Assembly (NCBI GenBank): GCA_963971575.1
Contig: OZ020611.1
Span: 205,448,743-205,512,742, forward strand
From: Liopterus haemorrhoidalis
Lineage: Eukaryota > Arthropoda > Insecta > Coleoptera > Dytiscidae
Reading direction: 5' to 3'
DNA length: 64,000 nt
The notes under the pieces were generated by a model that searched no databases, had not been told where the DNA came from, and saw only the letters and a list, made by a program, of their open reading frames with translations. A program made the position numbers and the translations under genes. Below are positions 25,941 through 62,832 of the stretch, piece by piece. Positions within the stretch are counted from its first letter, which is position 1. The number at the start of each line of letters is the position of its first letter.

Positions 25941-26964
25941 GGTTTTGTAGGTATGACCAAAAAACCCTTATACCGTCATTTTGTCGTCTGTCTGTCAGTT
26001 CGGTAAAAATTGTAGCCAAACGGCTAAACCTAGAGAGTTGAAATTTGGCATGCTTATACAACTCTTTGACACTCACATAGGAAAAATACTAAAACATCTA
26101 AAAAATATATCCCCCTAAAAATATAAACAAACATGTGCTCATCGAAAATATTTTTTATAATTCTGAGTAGGGTATCAAATGAAAGCCCTTGGTACGTGGA
26201 TTAACGATCAAATTTTTATTTTTGCAAAATAAATTATTTTGAAGCGATTTTTGCCAAAATTGTGCAAAAAAATTTTTGTCCCACACCCTGAGCCCAGATG
26301 GTTTAAAGTAAAAATCTAAAAAAATTCTAAGTAATGTACATTGGTGTGAACCGGAATAGTACATCAGGAATTTTTGATCAGATTATGTTTTTGAAAAAAA
26401 AAACGCATTTTTTGTGATTTTTGGCTAATAATGTACACAAGTTATAGCTTTGTAACACGCTACACTGGAACGTGTATGCTGGTGTAGTGGTTTTTTGACG
26501 TTGGTTTTTCACCCAAGTAACTCGATCCGAAAGGGATCGAACCCTGCGAGAAGAGACAATATTATTTTTTGTATTTTTTTTTATTTTTATATTGTTTAAG
26601 TTATTTTTTCAAAATTCTAGTTATATTTTGGCAAATGTCGGTAAATTTAATAACCAGTGGGAAGTGTTGAAATTGTAATTTAATTCTGTTTGATGTATAC
26701 GAAATCAGAGGGCGGGGCTAATGATTTAAGCAACCAATAGAAGCCATAGGCGCAATTTTCAAAATCGTAATGAACCTTGCTATGTAAAAAAAATACTGCA
26801 CATATTTAGAAACCTAAATAATGGTATAGGCGTTCGAATTAAAATTAACAAAAAAAATATTTTAATATAAAATTTGTTTTCGCATCCCAAATAATCATCA
26901 TTCACTTACTAAATACCTGCAAAACCCTGAAATATGTGAAAATTCCCACTTCACATCAATTTTT
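25941..26964 (+). mobile_element. HINE-like repeat, copy 1
   Basis: The 5' subterminal repeat 'ggttttgtaggtat' is matched by 'atacctgcaaaaccctg' at 26914-26929, followed by the decayed 3' palindrome 'atgtgaaaattcccac' and 'cacatcaattttt'. A short GTCY run lies at 25987-25999. The interior ('gagttgaaatttggcatgc', 'ggtatcaaatgaaagccctt', 'ttcacaccaatgtacatt' type blocks) is shared with the copies at 39560, 45812, 51914, 57005 and 62031. The tRNA-like cassette is listed separately. No protein. Confidence 0.9.
26471..26570 (+). promoter_or_regulatory. tRNA-like Pol III cassette in HINE copy 1
   Basis: The A box TGGTGTAGTGG (26480-26490) and the B box GATCGAACC (26535-26543) both match the Pol III consensus exactly; a T6 run at 26565-26570 could terminate transcription. 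'AGGGATCGAACCCT' forms a T-arm-like stem. This copy carries the same B-arm as copy 6. Confidence 0.65.
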
Positions 26965-27714
26965 TCATCTTTGGGAAAAGAAAAAAAGTCACATGGGGCC
27001 ATATATGGTGAATAGGATGCTTGCGGAATCATATCGGTACTATTTTTGGACAGAAAATCTCGAACAAGCAATTAAGTATGAGGTAAACTTAAAAAGATTC
27101 TTTACTTCACAATTTGTGATTTGTAATTTGTGAAGTAAAGAATCTGTTAATACAGAGTAATTATATGTATATATAATTTTATTATTTAATATCTATATAC
27201 ATTTCATATTATATTTTGACATATACACTACTTCATATTTTTACATATCAATCTCAATAATATCTATATCCTAGCAACTGTTGATTGCTGATCTTATATG
27301 TTACATTTCCGTAGCAACAGAATCTTTTCAAGTTTACCTTATCCTAAGCTTCACGTTAACTCAACAATTCTGAATTCTGGATTCTGAAAGCTGGAGTTAA
27401 ATAACTCTCGCCATAATTACAATCAAATGTCAAATCGGTATTCTCAAATCTCAGAGTGACCTATCCACAGTTAATTCACGTAAACATTAATACGTTCTGC
27501 AGATCTTTGTACATGTTTTATATTTAGCAAATCAAATAAGAGTATTTCCAGCAATTGAATTAATTCAATCTGTCAATTTATTATTTTATATACAATATAG
27601 TTATTCCATACTTCTTTTATGATAATTAAGGATAATATAAAAATAAATTTTATTTATATAATTTATAACTGTATTAATTTATATAATTGCTGTCATATAT
27701 TTATACTCTATTGC
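26965..27714. other. No gene seen
   Basis: 'ttctttacttcacaatttgtgatttgtaatttgtgaagtaaagaa' (in parts, 27097-27141) is a perfect short hairpin. Nothing else is supported. Confidence 0.55.
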
Positions 27715-28300
27715 AGTGGTGTTCAACAGAAGACCTATAGTGTCAAGCCCAAAAATAATTTTTAAACGGCCTACACTAAATTTTTGCCTCCCCAATTTGA
27801 TATTTTTAAATTCTGCCCCACGCCATCACCAAGTGATATTCTGCCCTCTGGTGACTTTTTAAATTTCTGCACTCGATTCTTAAGTGATTTATTTTTAAGA
27901 TTTGTCATCTCTCCGGTTTTAGTGATATTTAGAATTTTTGTCCCCCCTTGCCCCTCACTTATTTTTACCTCCCCCATCCTCAAGTGATTTTATTTATGTA
28001 CTTCTGCTCTCCCTTAAAGTAATTTTTTGAATTATTGTTCCCCGTTGCCCGAACTTATTTTCGGAATTTTTACCTCCTTCATCCGAAGTGATTATTGTTT
28101 GTACTTCTGCTCTCCCTTAAAATTATTTTTAGAATTTTTGCTCCCACTACCCCCAGCTTATTTTATAAATTTTTACCTTCTCCGCCCTCACAATTTTTTT
28201 TGTACTTCTGCCCATCTTTCAAGTTATTTTTAGAAAAGGTTGCCCCTCGCCCTCTTTTGGTATTACTGATTTTTTACCCCCTCAAGATTGATGTAATTTT
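27715..28300 (+). repeat. Degenerate pyrimidine-rich tandem repeat
   Basis: Starting after a hAT-like 'cagtggtgttcaac' (27716), roughly ten imprecise units alternate 'tttttgcyccccc' with 'aagtgattttatt' blocks. The FxPLPPxxF-type open frames are products of this composition. The other hAT end was not found. Confidence 0.6.
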
Positions 28301-28514
28301 AATAATATTATAACTTCGAATCTAGAATTTTAGAGGTTAGAATATGTTAATGTTAGTACAAGCTATCTCTCAACGCTGCGATTCATCTGGCGTTATGTCA
28401 CTCCAACTTTCAGCGTTAACGTGCACGGAAACTTTCGTTCAGAATCGCAATTAGACAAAAACCCCTGTGACCTAACGTTAACCCTTGTTGTGACTTAACG
28501 CAAACTTTCAGAAT

Positions 28515-29293
28515 CCCACTGAATATTTAATTAAGTATGAGCTGGTGCGTTACCATGGTGCAATATCCAAATCCTTCTATAAGTCTTGCCGTTTTCTGCG
28601 AATTTATTTACGCAGCCGACGCTATAAGCTCAAATAGTATTTTTTAGTAACTGTAATACCTTGCGGTAAAAATGTATGTTACACAATACCATTATAATTG
28701 AAAAAAACAGTGAGAAGAACTTTAACATTCGAGCGAACTTGGCGTGCTTTTTTGGATCTTGGTTCATTTAGAATTGAGATGATTGAGCCTAGATTTCGAC
28801 GTTTTAACCGTAAACCCACGTCTTGTCACTGGTTATGATGCGCTGGAGCAATGTTGAGTCATTGCTGACCTCATCAATTATTTCCTGAGCGACTTCTTTA
28901 GACACATATTTTGTTCAAAATTTAACAATATCGGAACAAATTTTGTTGCCGCTCGCCTTATGCCCAAAACATTAGTGAAAATTTCTTCGCATGGACCATA
29001 CGATATACCAACTTCTTCAGCAACCTCTCTAATAGTAATTCGACGGTTATCAATAACTTTCTTCTTATCTTCTTTCCCGTTTTTTTTTTTTCGGTGATTG
29101 AAGTGTTGGGTCTCCCAACTCTATCATCATCTTCAACTGATTCTCAACCATCTTAAAAGCATTTATACTATTTGTAAATCATTCGTTAAATCATATTCGA
29201 CTCACCAAATGACTTCTGCTAGGTTTTCACTACTTTACAGCACTTGATTTAATGTTTTACGCAAAATTTAATGAATATTCTTTGATCTTTCAT
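28515..29293 (-). pseudogene. Mariner transposase, N-terminal two thirds, decayed
   Basis: From ATG 29293 the frame reads QRIFIKFCVKH (N-terminus), DGRESVEDDDRVGRPN (with Arg codons turned to stops), IDNRRITIREVAEEVGISYG (second helix-turn-helix), IFTNVLGIRRAATKFVP, ITSDKTWVYG (normally ITGDETWVYG, first catalytic Asp kept), ARQVRSNVKVLLTVFF, FLPQGITVTKKYYLSL and WILHHGNAPAHT, where the second catalytic Asp (HHDNA) is Gly. The match stops at about 28515 before the third Asp. There are at least six in-frame stops. It resembles the mariner at 41316 in its N-terminus but is a different copy lineage. Confidence 0.88.
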
Positions 29294-29509
29294 TGTTAAA
29301 AATAAAAAATCGCCGAATATGCAGAAACATAACCTCTTTAATTAGCTATCAAATCTAAAATACACATCCAATATGGCTGCTAATTGAGACAGTCAACAAT
29401 TATTATTAGACAGGTTAACCAACATGACAACAAAAAAGAGTATCAATTCGTCAACTGTAGCGTGGGAATTTAGAAATCACATCTCGTAAAAACAATCCCG
29501 GCGAGATAT

Positions 29510-30200
29510 TATATCATTAAAAGAAATACTTCGGATTTCACTAACTACGGTGCCATTAAATCATTGTACTCAGCACTAGTCAGGAGTCACCTCGAGTATG
29601 CAAGTGTGGTGTGGAGTCCGTATCAGTCCACATACTCCAACCGATTAGAACATGTACAGGACAGGTTTATTAAGTACCTACTGTACAAATCGTACATTAA
29701 TTACACTTTGCTGTCTCGAGATCAACGGAGAAAATTAGTCGGTATGGAGTCACTTCGAATGAGGCGGGATATGGGCGGGTTATGCTTGCTCCATAAACTC
29801 GTTAATGGAGTTATTTCTTCACCGCAACTTTTAGAAAGAATAAAAATAAGGGTACCTATTCGTTCGACGAGGACAAATGACACCTTCATAGTATCCCGGC
29901 ACAGAACCTGCTACGGAAGTGATGTCACCATTGACAAGATCTGCCATCTATACAATTCCGTCTGCTGCAGTATTCATAACCCAGCAGATATTTTTTGCTC
30001 CACACTAGTCGAATTTAAAAGAAGCATTTTTAATACCCTTAGTCAGGATGAAGTAATTTATTGATGTATTAATTGTACTTAAATTTTACTATTTCTTCAT
30101 TTATTTGTGAAATTATTATGTATGAACATGTTTTGTTATGTATTATTTAGGATTGAACCTGTAAATACAAATTACTTAAATAAATAAATAAATAAATAAG
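29510..30200 (+). pseudogene. Non-LTR retrotransposon RT C-terminus, 5'-truncated
   Basis: From about 29515 the frame reads NYGAIKSLYSALVRSHLEYA, VVWSPYQSTYSNRLEHVQDR, then SLRMRRDMGGLCLLHKLVNG and a stop at 30062-30064. This is the thumb/C-terminal part of a Jockey-superfamily-like reverse transcriptase, downstream of the catalytic motif. The 3' untranslated region ends in (AAATA)n/(TAAA)n around 30177-30199, a typical LINE tail. The last 166 codons are open, so this insertion is younger than most others here. Confidence 0.85.
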
Positions 30201-30339
30201 TTTGGACGCAAGTTAAAATAAAAATTACAATATATTCTATTAAAATCCTTGCTGTAATGAATGTAGCTACTAATTAAATACATTTTTAAGTATCTAGGTA
30301 GAAATAAAATACATATTAGTACATTAACAAAGAAGTTAG

Positions 30340-30960
30340 ACGAAAAGGTAGAAACGATTAAAGAAAATGGCTATACGAGTTACGAGACCAAGCACAAATG
30401 ACGGCAGAAACCCATAATCTCCACAGGACGCCCATAATATGTGAATGCGAAACATTACCTCATAATTGGGATACAGGGTTAATTATAATACTACAAAAAA
30501 AGGAGACCTGAAAACAACGATAAGTGGAGAAGCCCAACCCTTTAAAATTGTTCCACTAAGGTTTTTGCACAGCTCTTATATTATACTCTTTCTACCCATA
30601 CTCGACTCGACACTACGACAAGAACAAGCTGGTTTGAGACCAAGGAGGTCTTGCATAGAACAATCTATATAATGGCAAACTTAAATTTATACTGTCTTTA
30701 TTGATTTCAAGAGAGCCTTTGACAGTTTATGCCACAACGCTCGTTAATACCAATAAAGGCGTCCCTGACAAAATAATCAATCTAATTAAATTACTCTATA
30801 ATAACGCAAATTGCAAGGTATCTACTATACAGGCGACAAGCGAACGAAAACTTCCAGTTACTTTCAGGGGTCAAACAAGGCTGCGAATTTTCCTCACTAC
30901 TATTTAGCGTAGTATTAGATTACGTCCTGACGTCAGTTAATACTTCCGCCAATGGTACAG
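30340..30960 (+). pseudogene. LINE reverse transcriptase, palm domain relic
   Basis: Three frames together give KKGDLKTTISGE (normally PKKGD...WRGI), LRQEQAGLRPRRSCIEQSI (RT motif EQAGFRxGRS), VFIDFKRAFDSL (motif A with the first catalytic Asp) and SGVKQGCEFSSLLF (motif B, GVxQGCxLSPLLF). Frameshifts separate them and the YxDD motif is not reached. The style is that of RTE/CR1-related LINEs; the clade is uncertain. Confidence 0.8.
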
Positions 30961-31349
30961 TGCGGGACTTTACTTTGGGATATTAGTTTACTTTTGCACA
31001 CATACACCGATATAAAGAACATGCTACAGTACAAAATAAAACTGCGCATTTTTAATACGAACGTGAAATCCGTACTTCACGTATACGAAGCAATAGTTTT
31101 TGTATAGCAGCTCCATCATGAAGATGTTGTTTCTTCCTATCGTTTTACAGTACTCACAGAAATTTTTCATTCTCGGTGATAATTAAATTTTGAAGCGATT
31201 ACTGATTTTTAGTTGTCCATTGGCGTTTTAAGCGATGGTTTAAGGTTAATAATAATATTTATGGGATAATTTAGTTGTTAATCTTTCATTATACAGTATT
31301 TACTATGATGCATGATAGTGTAATATTGAACATAAATTTAAGTACTTAC

Positions 31350-31476
31350 CGGATTTTGTTTTATAACTTCTGTATCAGCAACGACGTGCTTGTACCACAC
31401 CAGCCACATTATGTTGTTAAGAGCAAACGAGATGAACAGATGCATGTGAATTCGTATTCTTGTACATTTTAAAGAC
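31350..31476 (-). CDS. Dh31-R: Class B GPCR exon, TM2 (DH31/calcitonin-receptor-like)
   Basis: This 127-bp exon is flanked by acceptor ttttttgcag and donor GTAAGT. Taking two bases (AG) from the TM1 exon, it reads RSLKCTRIRIHMHLF, ISFALNNIMWLVWYKHVV and ends VIKQNP at phase 0. These are hallmarks of class B receptors: the basic first intracellular loop, the IHxxLF start of TM2, and NNxxWLxWY at its end. Joining NP to VWC of the exon at 1867 gives the expected first extracellular loop. The exon lies between two LINE relics that stop 390 bp before and start 250 bp after it. The assignment to the calcitonin/DH31 group is from family memory; class B membership is very secure. Confidence 0.93.
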
Positions 31477-31725
31477 CTGCAAAAAATAAAGTTAATGAAG
31501 TCTTATCGAAACTTTAAAATAATTGATGGGAAGTGAGAATTTTCGCACTTTTCAGGGTTTCGTAGTAAGTGAAATAGGTCAACTGAAGACTCGAATTCTC
31601 AACTTCTCAACTGCGAGTCAACTGAAGACTTAACTCGAAGACTGTCTTTATTGTTTTAAATTAATCTAGTTCTGAAATCTAGGAAACTTTTTATTTTATT
31701 CCTTATGTCCCGCATTATATTTAAA

Positions 31726-32620: not shown

Positions 32621-32737
32621 ATTACTACTTACTATATTTAAAAATATCAAGAATCATGAGTGTACTACTAGACTTCACAAAAAAACAACTTTCATCTGAT
32701 TAGTCGAAAAAAAAAAAAATAAATAAATAAATAAAAT

Positions 32738-33140
32738 TCATGTGAAGTGTGAATGCTCACATATCTCTGGGTTTTGTAGATATTTAGTAAGTAATAACAA
32801 ACTGGGGTAGGTACATATTAAAAATAATATAATTCGATAAATTTGTAAAGAATATGCCCCGTGCTTCCATCAAGAGAAAACAGCACTAATTGAGATCCGT
32901 TTTTATCAAGATTCAGCTATAGCTATCCACTTCTAGTTAGTCAGATAAATATTGTAAGCACGGTGTTGTAAAAACTTTGATACCTTTCGAATTAATTATT
33001 AGATATAAATTCCTGTAGCACTGGGGGCAAGGGATTATTTAGCATATTTTTGGCAAAAATCGTTCATTTGGATACAATTTCTACCAAACAGACTGACAGG
33101 CACATGAATGACGTTTTTTTGGTCATGCCTACCAAACTCT
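32738..33140 (-). mobile_element. HINE-like repeat, short diverged copy
   Basis: Reversed ends are recognisable: 'catgtgaagtgtgaatgctc' and 'gggttttgtagatatttagtaagt' at the left, 'gttcatttggatacaatttc', 'cagactgacag' and 'ttttttggtcatgcctacca' at the right. At about 400 bp it is less than half the length of the main copies, and I see no tRNA-like cassette. Confidence 0.65.
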
Positions 33141-33253
33141 AAAAAAAGATAATTATGTTTTCGAACAATACAAAGGTTCAATAACTTTTGGAATAATAAT
33201 ATGAATAAGAAATACCGATCGTACTATTCCAGTTCACATAAGTTTGTAATCTA

Positions 33254-33857: not shown

Positions 33858-34038
33858 TATGTATATTCTTGAAAATTTTTGACAAAAATCGTTTAAACAA
33901 TAATATTTTTAAAAATTGTTTTTTAATAAACAGTTAATTTTAACTATAATACTGTTTTTCCAAAAGTCGGTTTTCCTTACGTTTTACGGATTGTTTCAAC
34001 TAGTTAACAAGAGAATAGTCGCTAAGGATCGCCTAGAT

Positions 34039-34372: not shown

Positions 34373-34380
34373 GCCTAGAT

Positions 34381-36544: not shown

Positions 36545-36770
36545 TTTTATAATAAACTAATGTTAAGTGTGAATTTTCACAAATTTCAGGATTTTGTAGG
36601 TATTTAATAAGTATAAGAAGTATAATAAGTATAATGCTGCGTTCAGAACCTCTAAATTATGAATTAGAATTAGTACTTAGAATTAACGTAAATGTTTGTT
36701 ATACGTAACTGTACGTTATCGTTCACAACCTTCTAAATTATACTTATAAATTAAAATTAGAAACATAATA
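36545..36770 (-). repeat. HINE-like terminus plus AT repeat
   Basis: 'aagtgtgaattttcacaaat' and 'aggattttgtaggtatttaa' (36555-36603) is a reversed 3' end of the HINE-like group, with the palindrome gtgtgaattttcac kept. The part 36650-36770 is the relative of 8250-8338 ('aattagtacttagaattaac', 'cacaaccttctaaatta'). Confidence 0.65.
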
Positions 36771-38786: not shown

Positions 38787-39031
38787 TTAACTATTTTTAT
38801 TTATTTTATTTTACATCGGCCTATTTCTGCAACGAGGCTAATCGCCGATGCCAGGGGGCGAGCTCATACACCTGGATGAGGGGTGAATGATTGTGAAATG
38901 AGAGTAATCTAAACATATTATTCTCGCCCGAATAATATCACCGACAGAGAATCGAACTACCAACCACACAATCCGACTGTATTCACCAGTTCAAACTGCT
39001 GCTATTTAGTGCGCTCGGCCACTCCGTCGGC
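38787..39031 (-). mobile_element. tRNA-derived SINE
   Basis: On the minus strand the 5' head 'gccgacggagtggccgagcg' has an A box (TGGCCGAGCGC) and an exact B box GTTCGATTC (near 38950). A body follows with 'cgccccctggcatcggcga' and 'gttgcagaaataggccgatg', then the tail TAAAATAAAATAAATAAA. Near-identical 13-bp flanks (ACACAATAAACAA at 38774-38786, ACACAAAAAACAA at 39032-39044) look like a target duplication. The head resembles tRNA-Ser/Leu (inference). Confidence 0.85.
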
Positions 39032-39279
39032 ACACAAAAAACAAAGACAGTTACTTCAATTACAATAAAAGAATTTAATACACAATCTTTTTTACTTGAC
39101 ATCACAGCTTAGATGAAGATTCTGTTGGCCTCTGCTTGGGGTTGTATTATCAGTATACCCACTGTATGACATTTCTGCAGACCAGATATTTGAAATCGAA
39201 TCCATAATAATAAACTTTATGACTGCCGACAACATTGTAAAAGTCGTTATTGCGAAAAAAATAATAAATTTTGTCAAAA

Positions 39280-39480
39280 ACACAAAAACTGCAATATATT
39301 CCAAAAATGTAATCTGATCAAAAATCCCTCTCATATGTTTCCGGCTTAAATCAATGTACATTACTTAGAATTTTTTTCAGATTTTTAGTTTAACAGCTTC
39401 GGGTTGTTTTAGTACTTTTTAAGTATTTTTGGAAAAAATTTAATAAAACAAAAAAATAAATTGAAATATAAAAAAATTAA
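39280..39480 (-). repeat. Diverged HINE-like interior fragment
   Basis: 'ttgtcaaaaacacaaaaact', 'aatctgatcaaaaatccctc' and 'atcaatgtacattacttaga' match the central part of the family in reverse. It is closest to 50990-51140 ('ctctcgtacgattccggct'). Confidence 0.65.
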
Positions 39481-39559
39481 ATAGAAGTTCTTAGTACTCA
39501 AATAATGAATTAAAATTATTAACAAAAAATGTATGTGAAGTGTGAATTTTCACACATTT

Positions 39560-40517
39560 CAGGGTTTCGCAGGTATTTAGTAAGTGAATGATGATTATTT
39601 GGGATGCCAAAACAATTTTTTTTTTTTTAATTCGAGTGTCTAATACCATTATTTAGGTTTTTAAATATGTGCAGTATTTTTTTTTTTTATATATAGCAAG
39701 GTTCATTAAGATTTTGAAAATTGCGCCTATGGCTTCCATTGGTTGTTTTAAGTTATAACTCCGCCCCTCTGATTTCATGTATTCAATTTCAACAATTTTC
39801 ACTGGTTATTAAATTTACACATTTAAAAATTAAATGCAACATATGCCCTTGAAAAAGAATTTAAACAAAAAAAAAAAAAATGCAAAAAAAAACAAAGGAA
39901 AAAATAAAATTGTCTCGAGACCGGAACCCTAGTTTGCAAAATAGAACGCAAGAGCACTAACCATTACACCATGAAAGCATGTTGGTTTCTTGCATAAGTT
40001 ATCAAATATTTTACATGGTCAAGCAAAAAACACAAAAAATGCGATATTTTCTGAAAACATAATCTGATCAAAAATTCCTGTTGTACTATTCCGGTTCACA
40101 CAAATGTATATTACTTAGAATATTTTCAGATTTTTAGTTAAAACCATCTGGGCTACAGGGTGTGGGGCAAAATTTGTTTGCACAATTTTGTCAAAAATCG
40201 TGTCATACTAATTTATTTTGTAAAAATAAAATTTTAATTGATAATCCACGTACTAAGGGCTTGCATTTGCTACCCTAGTCAGAATTTTAAAAAATTTATA
40301 TTTTTTTTCGATGCTCAGATATTTGTTTATATTTTTAGGGGGATATGTTTTTTGGATGTTTTAGTATTTTTCCTATGTGCGGGTCAAAGAGTTTTATAAG
40401 CATGCCAAATTTCAACTCTCTAGATTTAGCCATTTGGCTACAATTTTTACCGAACAGACAGACAGACAGAAGACAAAATGACGGTATAAGGGTTTTTTGG
40501 TCATTCATATAAAACCT
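39560..40517 (-). mobile_element. HINE-like repeat, copy 2
   Basis: Reversed copy. The 3' palindrome 'gtgtgaattttcacac' is intact just outside the left subterminal repeat (39541-39555), followed by 'cagggtttcgcaggtat' (39560). The (GTCY)n run is at 40455-40471 in complement, and 'ggttttttggtcattcatat' marks the 5' end. Confidence 0.9.
39899..39985 (-). promoter_or_regulatory. tRNA-like Pol III cassette in HINE copy 2
   Basis: The A box TGGTGTAATGG (39961-39971 in complement) matches exactly. The B-box region GTTCCGGTC has two mismatches. A T6 run follows (39899-39904 in complement). The phrase CATGGTGTAATGGTTAG is like the D arm of tRNA-Gln (inference from memory) and differs from copies 1, 3 and 6. 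Confidence 0.6.
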
Positions 40518-41147
40518 TAAAAACTGTTGGTTTTGATGTGATAATAGAATATTCCTAAACATCCAATATTATGTTGGCTTCTTATACTTATTAAATACCT
40601 TCAAAGGCCTGAAATGTGTGAAAATTCGCACTTCACATAATTTTTTCAGAATTACGTCGCTAAAAACGGGAACACATTTAAAGCATATTGCCTTAATATC
40701 ATTTCCAAAAGACTGCCACCATAAATCGGATTTATAAAAAAATATGTATGGAAGGAAATAAGCTGAATAAGCGGTATTTTCATTTTTATATATTCCACAG
40801 AAGGGAATTAAAGTATGAATTACGAATTTTGACATATTCCTATAGAAGAAATATAGAAGATTTTCTTTTATATAAATTAAAATCTAAGCTTTTCTATTAA
40901 CTTGTGACACGTGCGAACTTAGTATCAAATGGAAATGTTATTTCACAAGAAGTATAAATTGATTTATGTCTTTGATAATAATTCCCGCTGTCTCAAGAAT
41001 TCACAAAGGCTATACTTTTATATTTTTTTAAATATTAGCTTTATCACTGTTGGCACGTGTCGCTGATTATTGACACGTGGATTTTTATATATTCTTTTAC
41101 GTGATTTACTTAAAAACACAGAAGATAGACATCTTTTTAAATTTATG
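40518..41147. other. No gene; HINE-like 3' terminus at 40595-40650
   Basis: 'cctgaaatgtgtgaaaattc' and 'gcacttcacataattttttc' form an isolated plus-strand end of the HINE-like group. The flanks show no gene. Confidence 0.6.
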
Positions 41148-45811: not shown

Positions 45812-46850
45812 AGGGTTTTGTAGATATGATCAAAAAACCCTTATACCGTCATTTTTTCGTCTGTTTGTCTGTCTGTCTGTTCGGTAAAAATTGTAGCCAA
45901 CCGGCTAAACCTAGAGAGTTGAAATTTGGCATGCTTATACAACTCTTTGACCCGCACATAGGAAAAATACTAAAACATCTAAAAAACATATCTCCCAAAA
46001 ATATAAACAAATATGTGCTCATCGAAAAAAAAATATATATATTTTTTTAAATTCTGAGTAGGGTATCAAATGAAAGCCCTTGGTACGTGGATTAACGATC
46101 AAATTTTTATTTTTGCAAAATAAATTATTTTAAAGCGATTTTAGCCAGAATTGTCCAAATTTCTTTTTGTCCCATACCCTGTTGTAACCCAGATGGTTTA
46201 AACTAAAAATCTGAAAAAATTCTAAGTGATGTACATTGGTGTGAACCGGAATAGTACAACAGGAATTTTTGATCAGATTATGTTTTTGGAAAAAAACACA
46301 TTTTTTGTGTTTTTTTGGCTAATAATGTACACAAGTTATACTTATGTAACACGCTAGACTAGAAGGTGTGTCCTGGTGTAGTGGTTATGGCGCTGGCTGC
46401 TTACTCAACTAAATCAGTTCGTCCCTGCGAGAGGAGACAATATTATTATTTTTTTTGCATTTAAAAAAATTTTTTTTTCAAATTCTAGTTATATTTTGGC
46501 CAATGTTGCGTTTAATTTTTAAAAGCGTAAATTTAATAACCAGTGGATATTGTTGAAATTATAATTTAATTCTGTTTCAATGTACACGAAATCAGAGGGG
46601 CGGAGCTTATAACACCAATGGAAGCCATAGGCGCACTTTTCAAAATCTTAATGAACCTTGCTATATATAAAAAAATACTGCACATATTTAGAAAGCTAAA
46701 TAATGGTATTAGACATTCAAATTCAAATTAACAAAAAAAAAAAATATTTTAACATAAAATTGGTTTTGGCAACCCAAATAATCATCATTCACTTACTAAA
46801 TACCTGGAAACCCTGAAATGTGTGAAAATTCAGACTTCACATCAATTTTT
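45812..46850 (+). mobile_element. HINE-like repeat, copy 3
   Basis: The 5' subterminal repeat 'agggttttgtagatat' (45812) and (GTCT)n at 45859-45880 are present. The 3' subterminal repeat 'tacctggaaaccctg' (46801-46815) is followed by the palindrome 'gtgtgaaaattcagac' and 'cacatcaattttt'. The longest and most complete plus-strand copy. Confidence 0.92.
46366..46456 (+). promoter_or_regulatory. tRNA-like Pol III cassette in HINE copy 3
   Basis: Exact A box TGGTGTAGTGG (46374-46384), B-box region GTTCGTCCC (46417-46425, one mismatch), T-run 46449-46456. 'GTGGTGTAGTGGTTAT'-type D arms are known from tRNA-Val (inference from memory). Confidence 0.62.
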
Positions 46851-47016
46851 ACTTGCCCGACCTTAATATATAAGGGTCAAATATTGTAATCGTGAAAATT
46901 TTCGGTGTCGTACGACTTAATTATTTGTTATTTGTTTTTAAAAATATTCTATAATAATATGACAGTTTTTTATTATCCACCCTCATCTAAGGGAGGACTA
47001 CTCATATCACTTAACA

Positions 47017-48390: not shown

Positions 48391-49474
48391 TTGGCAAGGG
48401 CGCCAAAACACGGCTCTGCCTCTAGCGCAAGTTATTCTTACTGCGACTCTATAATAATTCCTTATTATCCTAGTTGATTATTTTATTATATATAAACAAT
48501 TATTAATCCTATGAAATTTCTAAGGTTATTAAAATAATAAGGCGGTTTTCATTGTTCGTAATCTGGTGAAAATAAGCTCAGACATGTTACGCACCGGATT
48601 ACGTTAGGAACCCTCCTCGCTGAAATGCTCCCAATAGAAACAGACTTTAGGCATAATGCGTTTAATATGATTAATTCTCTGAACTCCAGCCATTTATCCA
48701 TTATCCTCAAATCCCAGCTTGAAAGATTTTTTTTTAATGGCTTCGTCGCTGAAGAATAGATCGTTCAAATTGTTATTAATGAAACTTATTCAAATTAAGT
48801 AAATTGATTTCTTTAAAATATTTACGCGTGTTAATTGAATTTTTGATAAAATGAAGATGAAAAAAGAAAATAGATAAATGATAAGACAAAGCCGTTTTTG
48901 AAACCATCCAACGAAAATTGTTGTAAATCACTATTTTAATTTTTTAAATTATGTAATTTAAATATTAATATAACGTGTAATCTTTCCGTGAAAAAAGAAA
49001 ATCTTAGAAAACTCTACGTTATGTTAGTAAAATTATAGCTTCGTGAGGTAACATTTTTTTCATGGAAAGATTACATGATAGTCTAATATTTAACTCATAT
49101 AATTCAAAAAATTGATGTGAGGTGTGAATTTTCATACATTTCAGGGTTTGTATGTATTTAATAATAATTTTATTTACTAGAGCCCATGGCTCAATAGAAA
49201 ATGCATTAATTTACAAATTTATGTCGCAAAAACAAACTTAATGACTAAACTATCATATCATAAGACTATAACATATCCAATTTTTAAACAAACAATAACA
49301 CTAAGAAAGTAATAAGTGTGCAATATTCTGTTTAACAGAATGCTGGATGTATAAGAACTAGCAGACCCGTTGCCAACAACGTTGGCAAACTGATATCGAA
49401 TAAAAATCAATATAAGCAGGAATCAATTATTAAAATTTGCATGATTCTGCGTATATTAACAAAACAAAAACGTT
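48391..49474. other. No gene; isolated HINE-like end at 49105-49165
   Basis: 'attgatgtgaggtgtgaatt' and 'catacatttcagggtttgta' form a reversed end of the HINE-like group. An inverted pair 'cttagaaaactctacgttat' / 'cgtgaggtaac' near 48980-49060 was too weak to call. Confidence 0.55.
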
Positions 49475-50989: not shown

Positions 50990-51260
50990 AAAAAAAAATA
51001 ATAATAATAATTTTGTCAAAAACATAAAAACTGCAATATTTTCCAAAAACGCAATCTGATCAAAAATTTCTCTCGTACGATTCCGGCTCAGATCAATGTA
51101 CATTACCTATAACTTTTTCAGATTTTTAATTTTTTATTTGGAAAAGTACGGGGATAGCATATTTTTGACTAAAATCGTACTAAAAAAATGAATTTAATAT
51201 AACAATTTTTCGTTCCTTAATCTACGTCTTAAGAGCTTTCTTCTGATACTACACAATAAA
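50990..51260 (-). repeat. Diverged HINE-like interior fragment
   Basis: 'caatctgatcaaaaatttct', 'gattccggctcagatcaatg' and 'taatctacgtcttaagagct' correspond in reverse to the middle of the HINE-like repeats. Close to 39280-39480. Confidence 0.6.
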
Positions 51261-51564
51261 TTTTGAAAAAATATATATTTTTTCAACGACAAAAAAATTG
51301 ATATTTTTGGAAAAATTATTCTGATCAAAAATTCCGGTTGAACATTCAATGTAAATTATGGAGTTTTTTTTTTTTCATATTTTTAGATCAATCCCCTGGG
51401 AGATAGACAAATATACCAATTTTCCAACAAAATCCAATTTTTCCCCTTCAAATTTTTAAATTTTGATGAATCATTTTTTAACTCCGATTTTAGCCAAAAT
51501 ATAGTTAGTTAGTAAGCTAATTTTGGGGTGAGGATTATGAAAAAAATTAAATAAAATAAAAAAA

Positions 51565-51720: not shown

Positions 51721-51913
51721 TTAAAAATCACGATTTTTTTAAGGTCTTCCCCTTACGATTTTTTCGATTTTTTGCCATTTACAATGGTTTTGGATAACTG
51801 TCTATACAAAACTTAATAATTGGTTTATTAAAGCCCAATTTTCTTTTTAAACTAAACAATGTAGGAGAATTTAAAAAATTTAAACCACAAATTCCTATCC
51901 ATAACCATTTATA

Positions 51914-52875
51914 GGGTTTTGTAGGTATGACCAAAAAAATACTTATACCGTCATTTTGTCGTCTGTCTGTCTGTCTGTTCTTTAAAAATTGTAGCTAAAC
52001 AGCTAAACCTAGAGAGTTGAAATTTGGCATGCTTATACAACACTTTGATCCGCACATAGGTAAAATACTAAAACATCGCAAAAACATATCCCCCTAAAAA
52101 TATAAATATGTGCTCATCGAAAAAAAATTTTTTTTTTTTAAATTCTGAGTAGGGTATTAAATGAAAGCCCTTACGTGGATTAACGAACAAAATTTTATTT
52201 TCGCAAAATAATTTATTTTGATGCGATTTTACTAAATTGTGCAAAAAAAAATAATTGTCCCACACCCTGTAGCCCAGATGGTTTAAACTAAAAACCTGAA
52301 AAAATTCTGTAAATAAAAAAAGTAATGTACATTGGTGTGTACCGGAATAGTACAACAGGAATTTTTGATCAGATTATGTTTTCGGAAAATAACGCGTTTT
52401 TTGTGTTTTTGGGTTGACGATGTTTTAAAGTTATAGTTATGTAACACACTATACTAGAAGGCGTATCCTGGTCTAATGGATAGTTTGCTCGCTTGCTACG
52501 CAGAAAACTAGGGTTCGCTCCCAGGCAGAGGAGACAATTTTATTTTTTGTTTTTTTTTTCTATTTTAATTTTGTTTAAATTATTTTGTTTAGTTATATTT
52601 TGGCAAATGTTGCATTTAATTTTTAAGAGCGTTAATTTCATAACCAGTTGGAATTGTTGGAATTATATTTTCATTCTATGTGTCATGTATACGAAAGCAG
52701 AAGGGCGGAGCATATGACTTAAAACAACCAATGGAAGCCATAGGCGCAATTTTCAAAAACTTAATGAACCTTGCTATAAATAAAAAAAAAACTGCACATA
52801 TTTAGAAACCTAAATAACGGTATTGGGTATTCGATTTAAAATTAACAAAAAAATATTTTAACATCAAATTTGTTT
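51914..52875 (+). mobile_element. HINE-like repeat, copy 4
   Basis: 5' end 'gggttttgtaggtatgacca', (GTCT)n at 51961-51979, and the usual interior. The 3' end is lost: after 'atcaaatttgttttt' unrelated sequence starts instead of the terminal palindrome. Confidence 0.9.
52461..52548 (+). promoter_or_regulatory. tRNA-like Pol III cassette in HINE copy 4
   Basis: Exact A box TGGTCTAATGG (52469-52479), B box GTTCGCTCC (52513-52521, one mismatch), then T6 at 52543-52548. The phrase GGTCTAATGGATAG is like the D arm of tRNA-Arg (inference from memory) and is unlike the other copies. Confidence 0.65.
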
Positions 52876-53013
52876 TTAAAGCTCTTAGATTAACAGACCG
52901 CCAACATATATAAGGGAGGTATTGTGATCATACCGATTTTGACGTTTCGAGATTTCGATGGATCTCCACGAATTGAGGTCCCTACATAACGTTTTGACTA
53001 TTTTTAGCATGAT

Positions 53014-53081
53014 GTCTGTCGGTCTGTCTGTCCGTCCGTCTGTCTGTCTGTCTGTCTGTCCGTCCGTCCGTCCGTCTGTCT

Positions 53082-53115
<34 letters not shown>

Positions 53116-53119
53116 CTGT
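53014..53119 (+). repeat. (GTCY)n microsatellite
   Basis: About 26 tetranucleotides, alternating blocks of GTCT and GTCC. The flank 'gttttgactatttttagcat' is like 56707-56726, next to another GTCY run, so it belongs to a second repeat family with this motif. Confidence 0.95.
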
Positions 53120-56603: not shown

Positions 56604-56639
56604 GTAAGTATCAAAAAGGTGGGGCACTTTTAACTCTGC

Positions 56640-56880
56640 ATATCTCAAAGAGTTAAAAATTTTCGTAGTATTTTGACTTTGGTAGATTTAGTATGTTTAG
56701 CTTAAACCATTTTGACTATTTTTAGAATTTTTGTCTGTTTGTGTGTCTGTCTGTGTTCCTGTTTGTCCAAGCACTCAAAAACTACTGGTCGGATTTTGAT
56801 AACATTTTGTACATATGGTTATGATATTAGCACTTCCATGATAGGTTCTTTTTTACGGCAATACCTGGGTTAACACATTC
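56640..56880 (+). repeat. GTCY-containing repeat fragment
   Basis: 'ttttgactatttttagaatt' then 'tgtctgtttgtgtgtctgtc' resembles the flank of the long (GTCY)n at 52990-53119. Confidence 0.55.
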
Positions 56881-57004
56881 CCGCTTGAGCAATATATTTC
56901 GTAAATCTGTTATTAAACAACATATGAAAATCTACTGTAAAACCAATATTTTTGATGAAATTTTGTTGTAAAGCATTATAGCGACGGCAATCTATACATA
57001 AAAA

Positions 57005-58030
57005 TTGATGTGAAGTGTGAATTTTCACACATTTCAGGGTTTCGCAGGTATTTAGTAACTGAATGATGATTATTTGGGATGCCAAAACAAATTTTATGTC
57101 AAAATATTATTTTATGAATTTTAATTCGAATGCCTAATACCATTATTTAAGTTTCTAAATATGTGCAGTATTTTTTTTTTTTTATATAGTTAATTAAGAT
57201 TTTGAAAATTGCGCCTATGGCTTCCATTGGTTGCTTAAATCATAAGCCCCGCCCTCTGATTTCGTATACATTCAAACATAGAATTAAATTATAATTTCAA
57301 CACTTCCCACTGGTTATTATATTTACTCTTTTAAAAATTAAATGCAACATTTACCAAAATATAACTAGAATTTTGACAAAATAAAAATGCAAGAAAAAAA
57401 CAGAAAAATTAAAATTGACAGGAATAGAACTCTCGAATTTGCAAATTGCGAAGCGACGATACAACGCACTACGCTACGAGCGATTACTTATCTACTGTGG
57501 TACATAGCGAATTAAATATTTGACATATTTTTGTTCAAAACACAAAAAATGCGTTATTTTCCGAAAACATAATTTGATCAAAAATTCCTGTTGTACTATT
57601 CCGGTTCACACCAATGTACATTACTTAGAATTTTTTCAGATTTTTAGTTTAAACCATCTAGGCTACAGGGTGTGGGACAACATTTTTTTTGCACAATTTT
57701 GGCAAAATACGCGTCAAAATAATTTATTTTTCAAAAATAAAATTTTGATCGTTAATCCACGTACTAAGGGCTTTCATTTGATACCCTATTCAGAATTTTA
57801 AAAAAATATTTTTTTTTTTCGATGAGCACATATTTATTTATATTTTTAGGGGGATATGTTTTTTAGATGTTTTAGTATTTTTCTTATGTGTGGGCCAAAG
57901 AGTTGTATGAGCATGCCAAATTTCAACTCTCTAGGTTTAGCCGTTTGGCTACAATTTTTACAGAACAGATAGACAGACAGACGACAAAATGACGGTGTAA
58001 GAGTTTTTTGGTCATACCTACTCTAAAAAC
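57005..58030 (-). mobile_element. HINE-like repeat, copy 5
   Basis: Reversed copy with an intact palindrome 'gtgtgaattttcacac' (57015-57030), 'cagggtttcgcaggtat' (57035-57051), the usual interior and (GTCY)n complement near 57968-57983; 5' end 'ttttttggtcatacctact'. Confidence 0.92.
57404..57485 (-). promoter_or_regulatory. tRNA-like Pol III cassette in HINE copy 5
   Basis: A-box region TAGCGTAGTGC (57466-57476 in complement, one mismatch), B-box region GTTCTATTC (57421-57430, one mismatch) and a T5 run. The 'GCGTAGTGCGTTGTATCGTC' stretch has no counterpart in the other copies. Confidence 0.55.
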
Positions 58031-58233
58031 GATTGTTTATTATTATATTTTTGCTTTAGCAACTTTGGCTATTAGCCAGGATAGTTCTTATTTACTAAAT
58101 TGATGATTTTTAACTATAGAGAACACATTTTTAACTAGAAAATAAATGTTTATCCTCAGCGGGGATCGTTCCCAGACCCGCCACGTGGAAAGCATTGTTC
58201 GAATATGACATCTATATCTATGTTTAGGTCTTG

Positions 58234-58251
58234 CCCCCCCCCCCCCCCCCC
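58234..58251 (+). repeat. Poly-C run (C18)
   Basis: Eighteen consecutive C just before the outer arm of the nested palindrome. Confidence 0.97.
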
Positions 58252-58599
58252 TAGAATAATTTTGTCAGCCATAGCGATTTAACATGTAAAATAATAAATA
58301 TGATATTTCCTGCTTCTCTAATTGTTTTAGAGAAAAAGTGCAAGAGATAACATTTATTTAGAATTAAAAATTCTACATAACAGATAAGTTATCTTCCAAC
58401 TACTTCCTAGGAAATTTAAAAATTTAAAATTTTATAAAGCATTCTTTATCAAGATGCTATGCTTTATAAACAAATGTACATGAAAGACTAGTAATCTAAA
58501 TAATAAATTCAATTTATAAATCTAGTAAATTTATTAATAAATAAATAATTATAATATTTTTTAACATAAATAATTATATTTTACAGCAAATGTTCAAAT

Positions 58600-60183
58600 A
58601 TGTCGAGTTTACGGAAATTTCGACCCCCACATTTCGCCCCCACATTTTGTCCCCCATATTTCGCCCCCCACATTTTGTCCCCACATTTCGCCCCTCCACA
58701 TTTCGCGCCCCGGATATTTGCCCCTGGATATTTCGCCCCCCCCCCCGGATATTTCGCCCCCTGCATATTTCATCCCCGCGCCTATTTAACCCCCGAGATA
58801 TATTATAAGTAATTTAGCCGCACGTTCACTCTGATCGACTGGAATAGTTGCTATTTGACTGCCTGGAGAAGTGAACTGTGACAGGGAAATTTGGACATTT
58901 ACACAGGGATCAGCAATATTTACCCAACAAAAGCGAATAATTTGAACTTGTACAGGGATCGGAAACTTTTTTCTTACAAAATTGAGATTCTTTGACTTAT
59001 ACAGAGGTCGTCAACCTTTTACTTGTACTGTATTTACCAACATTTCTTCTACATTTTTCATAATTTTGCTTAATATTTTCTGGATAGTCTACTTAATTTG
59101 AGTGAATAGACGTAAAGATCTTGGAGTAGGAATGACGAGAATTAGAAATTTCTGGAACCGGGTACCCGCTACAATTACCCGGATAATACCCATTACCCGT
59201 TAATTACCCTCTACCCGCTAATAACCCGTTACCCGTTAATTACCCGTTACCCGATAATTACCCGCTACCCGTTAATTACTCGGTAACCGTTAAATACCCG
59301 CTAAAAAATTGGAAATACAGTATATTTTTCAATTTTGTCAATCTCCATAATATAAGTGACGAGCAAAAAAAAAGATCCTTACCTCTAAAATCCAAGAAAT
59401 GAGCAAAAAAAGAGTCCTCACTTCCAAAATCCAAGTGATAAGCAAAAAAAAAGGTCTTCACCCCAACTGATACCTGTTAATTACCCGCTACCCTTTAATT
59501 ACCCGCTACCGTTAATTACCCACTATCCGTTAATTACCCGTTAACTAAAGAGTTAACGGGTAATGGGTAGATAACGGGTAGCGGGTATTCAAACTCGGAA
59601 CCGGGTAGAACCTTAACGGTTCGGGTACCGGGTACTTGGGTACCCGAAGTCATTCCTAATCTGGAGGTACCCTAATCGCTTGTAAAAGAGTTTTACAATT
59701 TTATTTTAATCACGACTATGTGCTTCTATTAAACTTTCCGTCCTGCAATAAACATTTACCAACCAAAGGTTTGGGATAATAAAAATATTGCCGTTATGTT
59801 AACACGACCTCTGTATAAGTCAAGGATCTCAATTCTCTCGATCCCTATGCAAGTTCAAATTATTCGCTTTTGGTGGGTATTGCTGACCCCTGTACAAGTC
59901 CATATTTCCCTGTCATAGTTCACTTCTCCAGACAGTCAAGTAGCCACTATTCCAGTTGGTCAGAGTGAACGTGCAGCTAAATTACTTATAATATATCTCG
60001 GAAGCGAAATATCCGCGGGGGCGAAATGTGCAGGGAGCGAAATATCGGGGGGGGGGCGAAATGTGTAGGGGGCGAAATATCCGGGGACTATATGTCCGGG
60101 GGGCGAAATGTGGGGGCGAAATGTGGGGGTCGAAATGTGGGGGGCGAAATGTGAGGGGCGAAATTTCTGGATCTCAATATGTC
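58600..60183. mobile_element. Fold-back-like element, copy D (ttcgcccccacat ends)
   Basis: The arms of about 430 bp (58600-59040 and 59750-60183) are inverted copies. The outer ~180 bp of each is a tandem array of 'catttcgcccccca' units; inward they share 'aatttagccgcacgttcact', 'gactggaatagttgctattt' and 'gcgaataatttgaact'. Proline-rich open frames (FRPPHFAPTF) are by-products of the array. A second element (59127-59658) sits in the loop. Confidence 0.9.
59127..59658. mobile_element. hAT-like MITE full of 'ttacccg' repeats
   Basis: The ends TAGGAATGAC and the complement GTCATTCCTA continue with 'gggtaccc' on both sides, flanked by near-matching ATCTTGGAG / ATCTGGAG. The interior holds two clusters of 'gttaattacccgctacccg' units and a reversed block 'gggtaatgggtagataacgg'. 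Confidence 0.8.
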
Positions 60184-60300
60184 GCCATTCACTACTAAGC
60201 AGAAACCAAGTGTATCGGCAAAATTACTCCACACATTGGCCAGTTGCCTATCGGTTATTTTTGCACATTCCTTATTGATTTTATTTTTTAGGAAATCCAT
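60181..60300 (-). pseudogene. Myb/SANT-like domain fragment
   Basis: The 40-codon start MDFLKNKINKECAKITDRQL then ANVWSNFADTLGF resembles the N-terminus of insect Myb/SANT-like proteins (FLxxN...W..FA..LN), which often accompany Harbinger transposases. It runs directly into the end of the fold-back arm at 60181, which cuts it off before the rest of the domain. Confidence 0.5.
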
Positions 60301-60305
60301 GCATG

Positions 60306-60834
60306 CCAGCGCCTAAACCGTTGAGTCTAAACGTAAACGTACGGTGACTAAACAATTCGGTGAATGTCTGAACGGTTAGCGGTTAGTTTCAACGCGAGTG
60401 TTTGACAGTTTGAGTACATAACCTTAAAAATTTTTTAGAGATGGATTTATTTCTAATAGATAATTTTTTGTTTGACGAAGATATAGATTTTATGTTATCC
60501 AAATGGCAGTGGCTAACTTGGCGGCACCTATACATGTTGTGCCTGTTAGGAATGTGCCAACTTATAATGTTGGATATGACTAACAGACTAACAGAATTTA
60601 AAAACCATTTTAGACTGTCACGGCCTCAAGTGGCAGAATTAATCAATTTGTTAGCTCCAGTGCTATTAACTTGTATCTTGTATAAATTTCCGGCTAAAAA
60701 TTTAGGTTAGGTATACAAGTCAACATAACTAAACGTAAAATTTTTACGTTGAGATGTTTAGTAAACTGTTCACTGTCAACGGTAACGTTCAGAAGGTAAA
60801 CGTAGTGAACGAACTAAAATGTTTAGGGCGCTGG
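60306..60834. mobile_element. Harbinger-like segment with 'ccagcgcc' ends
   Basis: 'ccagcgcctaaac' at 60306 and the complement 'gtttagggcgctgg' ending 60834 form short inverted ends; AAACGT-rich sequence follows on both sides. The frame 60441-60710 is inside. No target duplication is visible. Confidence 0.55.
60441..60710 (+). pseudogene. Harbinger-like transposase N-terminus
   Basis: An 89-codon frame with acidic start LIDNFLFDEDIDFML, then TEFKNHFRLSRPQVAELINL, which resembles the F..RFRLS...V..L...I segment before the Harbinger DDE domain. The catalytic domain is missing. It lies head-to-head with the Myb/SANT fragment at 60300, the usual two-gene set of Harbinger elements, but both are incomplete. 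Assignment is tentative. Confidence 0.45.
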
Positions 60835-60979
60835 ACGCGCCCAATGTCTGGATGCCTTGCTCCGAATACTTTGCTTTTTAAATGTCCCTATAAAAAAAAG
60901 TTATTTGGTGATAGATCAGGGATAATTTTCAGAGATAAGTAGTTGGAAGATAGTTTACTTATCTATCATATTTATATAT

Positions 60980-61010
<31 letters not shown>

Positions 61011-61122
61011 AGTTTTTAATTATAAATAAATTTTATCTCTTGTACTTTTTCTCTAAAACAATTAGGTAAGCAGGAAATAGCATATTTATTATTTTACATG
61101 TTAAATCGCTATGGCCGACAGG

Positions 61123-62030
61123 TCAATTCACCATAATTTTAATTTAAAAAGCTTCTTATACACTTTATGAACTACAAACGTTTGCAGTTAAAAGCTTGCG
61201 AAATGTACGTATTATATTTTTGTATTTTTAAAGAATGAATAGGGATGCAGGACATCGCATGTTCGGTACAGCACATAAAACGTAAATATCCTTCTATTTG
61301 ACTTCAATCATAAAAAGTAACATTTCTATATTTTATATGATTCCATTTGTAAACGTATATATATATATATGATAGTTAATCCTTCCATGTCCATCTTAAT
61401 AATGAATTACTTTCCCGAAGGAAAATCTCAATTATAATTGTGGCTACAACAATCCGATTAGAAGTTTCGACGAGCCGCCACTGAAACCTATACATATTTT
61501 ATGAAACTAAACAAGTGAATTGATTGGCAAAAATTATAACCAGCGAAACAAATAGTGTAACTATTTCCGGTTTCATAGAGCATAATATCTGTCCAATAAA
61601 ATCACACAGCAAACTCTCAAACGAAGTGTTGCATATTGTGAAGTTAAAATTTTATTGGATTTCATAGTGCATTGTATTAACATTGTATAAAGTTGGTAAC
61701 ATGTCCCATATGTGCCTGAACAAACATGAAAAGCTATAACAAATGTAAATTACGTCCACCATTTATAGTTCGTCACAAAGCGTCATTTACATGTGCCATC
61801 TTTTGTTGTTATTTTGTACTTCATCATATATTACAGTGCACACAAACGGAGAATTTTTTATTTGGTTTTTTTATATTTAGATTTTGTTAGATATATAAGA
61901 TTATACAAATTTTGACAAAATGTGATACTGACAAAAATAGAAGAAGAAATAGAGCGAGAGAATAAATAGTTTACTTTTGTTATATAGTTCCTTTTTTAAT
62001 TTCGAGCGGAACTTGATAGTAATATCTTTT
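61123..62030. other. No gene seen
   Basis: Short (TA)n at 61355-61369; 'ttcgacgagccgccactg' at 61467-61484 is a hAT-like end in reverse. No ORF is supported. Confidence 0.5.
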
Positions 62031-62832
62031 CAGGGTTTTGTAGGTATGACCAAAAAACCCTTATACCGTCATTTTGTCGTCTGCCTGCCTGTCTGTCTGT
62101 CTGCCAATTTTACAATTCGGTGTAGGGTATCAAATGAAAGCCCTTGGTACGTGGATTAGCGATCAAAATTTTATTTTTGTCCCGCACCCTGTAGCCCAGA
62201 TGGTTTAAACTAAAAATCTGAAAAAATTCTAAATAATGTACATTGGTGTGAACCGGAATAGTTCAACAGGAATTTTTGATCAGATTATGTTTTCGAAAAA
62301 TAACGCATTTTTTGTTTAATAATGTACACTTTAAAGTTAAAGCTTTGTAACACGCTGCAATGGAAGGTCTATCCTGGTGTAGTGGTTATGATTCTGGCTT
62401 CTCACCCAACTAACTCGATCGAATGGGATCGAACCCTGCGAGAAGAGACAATATTATTTTTTGTTTTTTTTTTTGAATTTTTATATTTTTTAAATTATTT
62501 TTTCAAAATTCTGGTTATATTTTGGCAAATGTTGCATTTACTTTTTAATAGCGTAAATTTAATAACCAGTGGAAATTGTTTAAATTATAATTTTATTCTG
62601 TTTCAATGTACACGAAATCAGAGGGGCGGAGCTTATAACAACCAATGGAAGCCATACGCGCAATTTTTTAAATTCTTCGTGAACCAAGCTGAACCAAAAA
62701 AATACTGCACATATTTAGGAACCTAAATAATGGTATTAGGCGTTCGAATTAAAATTAACAAAAAAAATATTTTAATATAAAATTTGTTTTGGCATCCCAA
62801 ATAATCATCATTCACTTACTAAATACCTGTCA
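62031..62832 (+). mobile_element. HINE-like repeat, copy 6
   Basis: 5' end 'cagggttttgtaggtatgac' and (GTCT)n at 62082-62103. An internal deletion follows directly, so the block 'gttgaaatttggcatgct' is missing and the copy resumes at 'gtagggtatcaaatgaaagc'. The 3' side stops at 'aaatacctg' before the terminal palindrome. Confidence 0.9.
62366..62462 (+). promoter_or_regulatory. tRNA-like Pol III cassette in HINE copy 6
   Basis: Exact A box TGGTGTAGTGG (62375-62385), exact B box GATCGAACC (62427-62435), T6 at 62457-62462. Closest to copy 1. Confidence 0.65.

Follow-up and report, generated by a model that had tools for sequence, protein, structure and literature searches.

A HINE repeat family with a tRNA-derived centre that may have been exchanged between lineages

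Introduction

HINEs, non-autonomous Helentrons of the DINE-1 kind, are marked by subterminal inverted repeats of about 12–17 bp, a GTCY microsatellite in the 5′ block, a palindrome between the 3′ subterminal repeat and the 3′ end, and insertion into T-rich sequence without target-site modification (PMC4067079). The central repeats of DINE-1 differ between species and much less within one, and the element is stated to carry neither an RNA polymerase III (Pol III) promoter nor transfer RNA (tRNA)-like sequence (PMC2374699). Some Cg_HINE elements of the Pacific oyster have similar flanks and different centres, for which filler DNA, cut-and-replace and the insertion of centres with concurrent excision have been discussed (PMC7492417). 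Filler-DNA capture has also been proposed for Helitrons (PMC6544945). How the centres of Helitron-like elements are exchanged is unsettled, though such elements pick up DNA. Here we analyse a HINE family with six copies in a stretch of 64,000 nucleotides (the window) from the beetle Liopterus haemorrhoidalis (NCBI GenBank assembly GCA_963971575.1, contig OZ020611.1, forward-strand positions 205,448,743 to 205,512,742). With confidence a little better than even, we favour the reading that this family has an exchangeable tRNA-derived centre that was exchanged between lineages.

The family resembles HINE/DINE-1 in its ends, GTCY run, palindrome, T-rich junctions and variable centre between two conserved blocks (PMC4067079, PMC2374699). 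Unlike that of DINE-1 as described (PMC2374699), the centre here is tRNA-derived and differs between copies inside one 64-kb window. The combination of similar flanks and different centres is shared with some Cg_HINE elements, whereas oyster centres are satellite-like arrays and the string 'trna' occurs 0 times in that text (PMC7492417). Hel1 elements of Spodoptera frugiperda are likewise similar to one another but have taken up host DNA internally; there, in contrast, other DNA is added stepwise, and 'trna' again occurs 0 times in the text (PMC6544945). Finally, tRNA-derived short interspersed nuclear elements (SINEs) of insects have a tRNA-related head with Pol III boxes, as does the unit described here, which differs from them in having no body or tail by eye and in lying at a fixed place inside a HINE (PMC8010984). 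We found no tRNA-type centre in a HINE in the open-licence literature; subscription journals and repeat databases may hold one. Within that literature, a replaceable HINE centre is known and a tRNA-derived one is apparently new. With a short unit whose origin can be recognised (tRNA), a fixed site and well-aligned flanks, exchange events could be counted and their borders mapped.

Six HINE copies in one window

Copy limits were set by nhmmer searches with one profile for the left part of the element and one for the right, and the ends were then inspected copy by copy. Alignment and profile search recovered the six related copies (c1–c6; n = 6, all from the window) at the places where an earlier reading of the sequence alone (the sequence-only reading) had put them. 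The copies are 0.8–1.04 kb long and their flanks are ~10% apart.

25939–26966, + strand: HINE copy c1 (left and right profiles; ends)
39523–40518, − strand: HINE copy c2 (profiles; ends; perfect palindrome)
45812–46852, + strand: HINE copy c3 (profiles; ends)
51913–52884, + strand: HINE copy c4, truncated at the 3′ end (profiles; ends)
56999–58033, − strand: HINE copy c5, 5′ subterminal repeat partly lost (profile match from 58021, extended to 58033 with the decayed 5′ end; perfect palindrome)
62031–62843, + strand: HINE copy c6, with internal deletions and truncated at the 3′ end (alignment; profiles; ends)
62031–62047, + strand: 5′ subterminal repeat in its exact form, in c6 (exact pattern match)
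39540–39555, − strand: 3′ palindrome of c2 (exact pattern match)
57015–57030, − strand: 3′ palindrome of c5 (exact pattern match)

The HINE-type layout that had been proposed is present: subterminal repeats, palindrome, GTCY run and T-rich junctions were all found, and by structure the repeat is a HINE. The GTCT-type (GTCY) run, said to be common to the copies, occurs in the 5′ block of 6/6. TTTT lies immediately 5′ of the element in five of the six, and a T-run immediately 3′ of it in all four copies with an intact 3′ end. The terminal features were claimed for the family as a whole and hold for part of it. The exact 17-mer CAGGGTTTTGTAGGTAT has a single occurrence, in c6; the 5′ subterminal repeat is near-intact (0–2 mismatches) in four copies, has five mismatches in c2 and is partly lost in c5. 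Its 3′ counterpart has 0–1 mismatch in c1, c2 and c5 and a one-base deletion in c3. The 3′ palindrome is present in 4/6 (perfect in c2 and c5, one mismatch in c3, two in c1); c4 and c6 are truncated before its position and also lack the 3′ subterminal repeat.

A Pfam scan (E ≤ 0.01) of 10 of the 16 window open reading frames (ORFs) of at least 110 amino acids detected no Rep or helicase. Exact patterns of the repeat had no match in viral and genome contig collections, and a distant blastn search of c3 (45812–46380) against phages gave none either.

The centre diverges far more than the flanks

The six copies were aligned with MAFFT, and the core was defined as the interval from A box to B box. 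Across the 15 pairs, divergence was 6–14% in the left flank and 9–16% in the right flank, compared with 13–48% in the leader that precedes the A box and 13–53% in the core. As a mean over 65 columns, the core reached 0.39; outside columns 525–760 the maximum was 0.22 and the average 0.12 (145 steps). Fisher tests of the core against flank columns 400–524 and 760–1080 were significant for 14/15 pairs (p 1.9e-3 to 1.9e-11), the sole exception being c1–c6 (8/62 versus 38/390, p 0.5). Pairwise core alignments, which are independent of the multiple alignment, gave 60–87% identity over aligned bases with 1–22 gap positions; for comparison, isotypes of the tRNA library used below average 67% identity to one another. 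The earlier claim that the flanks align closely and the cassette does not is thereby borne out: compared separately over the six copies, cassettes diverge more than flanks in 14/15 pairs.

In all six copies the unit lies in one homologous internal place and in one orientation. The cores of c1, c3 and c6 are graded relatives, and a common leader joins c1, c3, c4 and c6. The c4 leader is 21–29% from those of c3, c1 and c6 versus 33–39% from those of c2 and c5, while its core is 32% from c2 and 38–45% from the other copies, and its trailer is equally near c2 and c6. By distance, these comparisons show at least three types of unit, namely c1/c3/c6, c2 and c5, with c4 combining the c1/c3/c6 leader with another core. 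The division into cassettes 1/6, 2, 3, 4 and 5 made by the sequence-only reading was thus right that the cores differ, but they are not five unrelated sequences, given the graded kinship of c1, c3 and c6 and the leader common to c1, c3, c4 and c6.

The core is tRNA-derived and no longer folds as a tRNA

Cores were compared with a hand-assembled library of 28 metazoan tRNAs, mostly human and fly, by local alignment of 125-bp segments at a step of 50 on both strands.

26480–26544, + strand: tRNA-derived core of c1, spanning A box to B box, with a Glu-like anticodon arm (tRNA alignment; arm shuffles)
39919–39971, − strand: tRNA-derived core of c2, with a Gln-like 5′ half (tRNA alignment)
46374–46425, + strand: tRNA-derived core of c3, kin of c1 and c6 (tRNA alignment; divergence)
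52469–52522, + strand: tRNA-derived core of c4, with a Gly-GCC-like anticodon arm (tRNA alignment; arm shuffles)
57421–57476, − strand: tRNA-like core of c5, best match Met, score 31 (tRNA alignment; arm shuffles)
62375–62436, + strand: tRNA-derived core of c6, Glu-like (tRNA alignment; arm shuffles)

The top tRNA scores in the window fell on c6 (44, Glu), c4 (43, Gly-GCC) and c2 (40, Gln). Among 2494 non-cassette segments the maximum was 31, reached by 2, and 29 was reached by 12, which places c3 (31, Val and Ser), c5 (31, Met) and c1 (29, Val) at the edge of background. On the opposite strand c6 also matches Ser (score 35), a result of the near-palindromic sequence at its B box. The proposal of a tRNA-type unit at one fixed internal position is backed by the scores of c6, c4 and c2 above background.

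Searches for folded tRNAs gave a different result. ARAGORN called 0 tRNAs in the window. Rfam gave none in the window at E ≤ 1, nor in the c6 and c4 regions, the two run singly, at E ≤ 10; the sole match in the c4 region, bxd_1, reached 9.2 bits where the gathering score is 75. Relaxed ARAGORN settings were uninformative (30 calls in the window at 80%, 207 at 70%). A covariance model built from 23 of the library tRNAs placed c6 (11.2 bits, E 0.22) and c4 (10.8 bits, E 0.29) at the top of the window, the next being a non-cassette place at 9.8; c3 (8.2) and c2 (8.1) were within noise, and the c1 and c5 cores had no full-length match. Seven of the 20 cloverleaf pairs are broken in c6 and again 7/20 in c4. 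The absence of ARAGORN and Rfam calls and the weak covariance scores led us to reject intact tRNA genes, and they give no support to the tRNA secondary structure that the sequence-only reading had proposed to look for. Together, the alignments show a tRNA derivative whose sequence is retained mostly at the boxes and whose cloverleaf fold has decayed.

Pol III-type boxes are partly retained in the units

A Pol III promoter of its own had been suggested for each copy. A T-run of at least four T starts 6–23 nt past the core end in 6/6 copies, and the 11-nt A box TRGYNNARNNG fits all but c5, which departs at the final base. Only c1 and c6, however, keep the strict B box GWTCRANNC; c3, c4 and c5 depart from it at one base and c2 at two. 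With a strict B box in 2/6, a working promoter in every copy is not supported. Allowing one mismatch per motif, a combined scan for A box, B box and T-run found 14 window sites, including five of the six cassettes (c2 was missed), compared with 9–18 sites in six Markov simulations. Boxes alone were therefore rejected as proof of a Pol III cassette: their number does not exceed chance, and the argument rests instead on tRNA similarity and the fixed position. Judged by their sequence, the c1 and c6 units with a strict B box may be candidates for TFIIIC/Pol III recruitment and for a short RNA ending at the T-run. Should the units bind TFIIIC/Pol III, this would be a rolling-circle-type transposon with a Pol III-type regulatory unit, a feature reported to be lacking in DINE-1.

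Best isotype matches differ between cores

Shuffling tests assigned the anticodon arm of c6 to Glu (0/3000 shuffles as good), that of c1 also to Glu (p 0.007) and that of c4 to Gly-GCC (p 0.0033). In the 5′ half of c2, 23/26 bases agree with Gln, the end of the acceptor stem among them, for a score of 40 (next, His, 28). We then simulated drift by substitution only, with 2000 runs per setting. With a Glu arm or the arm of c6 or c3 as the starting point, c4's Gly-GCC result arose in 0/2000 runs in each of nine settings, and any non-Glu isotype at c4's strength in 2–21/2000 per setting; starting from c6, c3 or c4, the Gln match of c2 arose in 0/2000 in each of six settings. That the copies resemble different tRNAs, as had been suggested, therefore holds for c6 (Glu), c4 (Gly-GCC) and c2 (Gln), whose differences drift did not reproduce, and is blurred at the level of the whole core, where the scores of c4 and c2 are ambiguous.

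Neighbouring blocks have discordant trees

Block trees were inferred under HKY+G4 with 200 bootstraps. In block R1 (alignment columns 740–900; ~26613–26750, + strand, in c1 and 57214–57372, − strand, in c5), c1 and c5 have variants in common that set them apart from the remaining copies (bootstrap 99), and trees joining c1 and c6 are 29.7 log-likelihood (lnL) units worse and rejected by the approximately unbiased (AU) test (p 0.001). The wider right block likewise joined c1 and c5 (90), although c1+c6 was not rejected there (AU p 0.21). The cassette tree separates {c1,c3,c6} from {c2,c4,c5} (92) and joins c1 and c6 (86). The left flank joins c1 and c3 (86), with c1+c5 7.6 lnL units worse (AU p 0.042). 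Because the trees of neighbouring blocks disagree, the copies are mosaics, with the centre as one apparently exchanged patch and R1 probably as another.

How the centre could have been exchanged

The flanks are too alike for the core differences to be the work of ordinary mutation, which points to exchange of the centre in source elements before the copies spread. In this scheme, source elements with near-identical flanks would already have carried different units. The tRNA-derived unit, of about 90–120 bp, comprises a leader, an A box, the relic of an anticodon arm, the B-box position and a T-run, and occupies the central place in which other HINEs hold satellite arrays. Homologous flanks and tRNA boxes would have guided the exchange, most likely by recombination, template switching or gap repair, the last being the filler-DNA route proposed for Helitrons. 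Judging from the element ends, mobilisation would presumably depend on a Rep/Helicase encoded elsewhere in the genome.

As to the source of the units, each core departs from the library tRNA closest to it at ~15–33% of aligned bases. This difference exceeds the ~10% between flanks, so the donors were probably already degenerate, for example SINE heads, tRNA pseudogenes or other HINE copies, and fresh capture from tRNA genes is unlikely. The repeated capture or replacement envisaged by the sequence-only reading is narrowed accordingly: swapping between HINE lineages already present accounts for the data no less well than repeated new capture.

Several results weigh against an exchanged centre. 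There are only six copies. The anticodon arms of c3, c2 and c5 match no isotype significantly (shuffle p 0.17, 0.40 and 0.82), and whole-core isotype is often ambiguous (c4: Gly 30, Glu 29, Asp 29; c2: Gln 26, His 26). Over its whole core c1 scores highest with Val (21), ahead of Glu (18), the closest isotype to the 5′ half of c4 is Arg (24) and not Gly, and the c2 and c4 cores are nearer to each other (z 8.0, 37/53) than to any library tRNA. The library was assembled by hand and is mostly human and fly, drift was run from Glu-like or cassette starts only, and the tested arms (by eye) and block R1 were picked after inspection. A cassette tree with c1+c5 is 9.9 lnL units worse, yet it is not rejected (AU p 0.115). 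Divergence is high even among clearly homologous cores (c1–c3 31%, c3–c6 25%), and it extends into the leader and T-run, which suits fast local mutation.

Alternative explanations

Fast local mutation is the essence of the most durable alternative, which we consider unlikely: a single ancestral tRNA-derived insertion that then diverged rapidly, for example through mutation tied to Pol III transcription of the unit or through lost constraint, with no swapping. tRNA genes have raised mutation. By eye, the leader can be traced as homologous in all six copies until ~25 nt short of the A box, and past the core 6/6 carry a sequence resembling (A)GACAAT-TTATTTTTT. AAACTAGGGTTC is common to c2 and c4, and divergence within c1/c3/c6 is graded and raised in leader and T-run too, all of which would suit a single insertion. 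It accounts less readily for core p-distances of up to 0.53 against flanks near 0.10, for isotype-specific arms that drift did not reproduce, or for the discordant trees of neighbouring blocks. Nor do the cores show an excess of transitions (144 versus 170 transversions, summed over 15 pairs), a point weakened by saturation.

That discordance could also arise if a few old HINE subfamilies had long-diverged centres and gene conversion homogenised their flanks, with no new capture. R1, cassette and left flank do give different nearest relatives, and c4 pairs one group's leader with a core nearest c2. Conversion would, however, need to spare precisely the centre, and in most blocks the flanks are star-like, not subfamily-like, so we regard this account as rather improbable.

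Slightly more doubtful still is a functional version of exchange, in which the element has a fixed docking site where tRNA-gene-type units are repeatedly swapped and kept for TFIIIC/Pol III binding. Such units would serve as an interchangeable Pol III promoter or as a boundary of the tRNA-gene (tDNA) type against silencing, renewed from different sources as old units decay. tDNA can act as a chromatin boundary.

Independent insertion of tRNA-derived SINEs at one T-rich hot spot in separate copies is highly unlikely. T-rich sequence does flank the unit on both sides, and a separate tRNA-like stretch lies past a diverged left-flank relative at ~38.94–39.04 kb; against this, orientation and borders are the same in 6/6, the leader is common to c1, c3, c4 and c6, and no SINE body, A tail or clear duplication is seen by eye around the unit. 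Chance tRNA resemblance of a merely variable spacer in AT-rich DNA, although in keeping with the lack of ARAGORN and Rfam tRNAs, the weak covariance scores and the unenriched box scan, is hardly credible when three cassettes exceed all 2494 other segments and all six score at least 29, a value reached by 12/2494.

Related elements and other features of the window

The window is AT-rich (32% GC) and holds the remains of several other transposons; one ORF is hAT-like, and a protein search with it gave four matches, among them one from Aphis gossypii (59% identity across 18% of the query). Profile searches also found shorter or diverged relatives of the family.

51018–51421, − strand: diverged left-flank relatives, with no tRNA-like core recognised (profile search)
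39276–39417, − strand: diverged left-flank relative (profile search)
32728–33145, − strand: short related element with both ends present (profile search)

No clean empty site was seen in the window: the left-flank relatives at 51.0–51.4 kb and 39.3 kb cease aligning reliably where the unit begins, and a repeat at 42.7 kb matching the c3 3′ flank (59 nt, 93%) has its 5′-flank match ~0.8 kb off. The tRNA-like stretch at ~38940–39040 (− strand), which sits ~200 bp past a diverged left-flank relative, is by eye of Leu/Ser type with a near-complete acceptor stem and is SINE-like; its library score is only 26.

Further HINE-type 3′ ends, each with subterminal repeat and palindrome, lie at 6270–6344 (−), 11682–11769 (+), 31514–31593 (−), 36548–36633 (−), 40586–40650 (+) and 49103–49184 (−). 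They mostly adjoin other upstream sequence, so other HINE families seem to share the 3′ end; that at 40586 is near the 5′ end of c2, in opposite orientation. A longer GTCY array (53013–53119, +) follows ~130 bp past the 3′ truncation of c4.

Elsewhere, 24212–24375 (−) gave an Rfam match to MIR7993 (49.6 bits, below the gathering score of 100); on inspection by eye it forms a long, imperfect inverted repeat and might be a miniature inverted-repeat transposable element. A tandem array at 22278–22669 (+) has an 89-bp unit containing TTAGGTTAGGTTAGG, the insect telomere motif.

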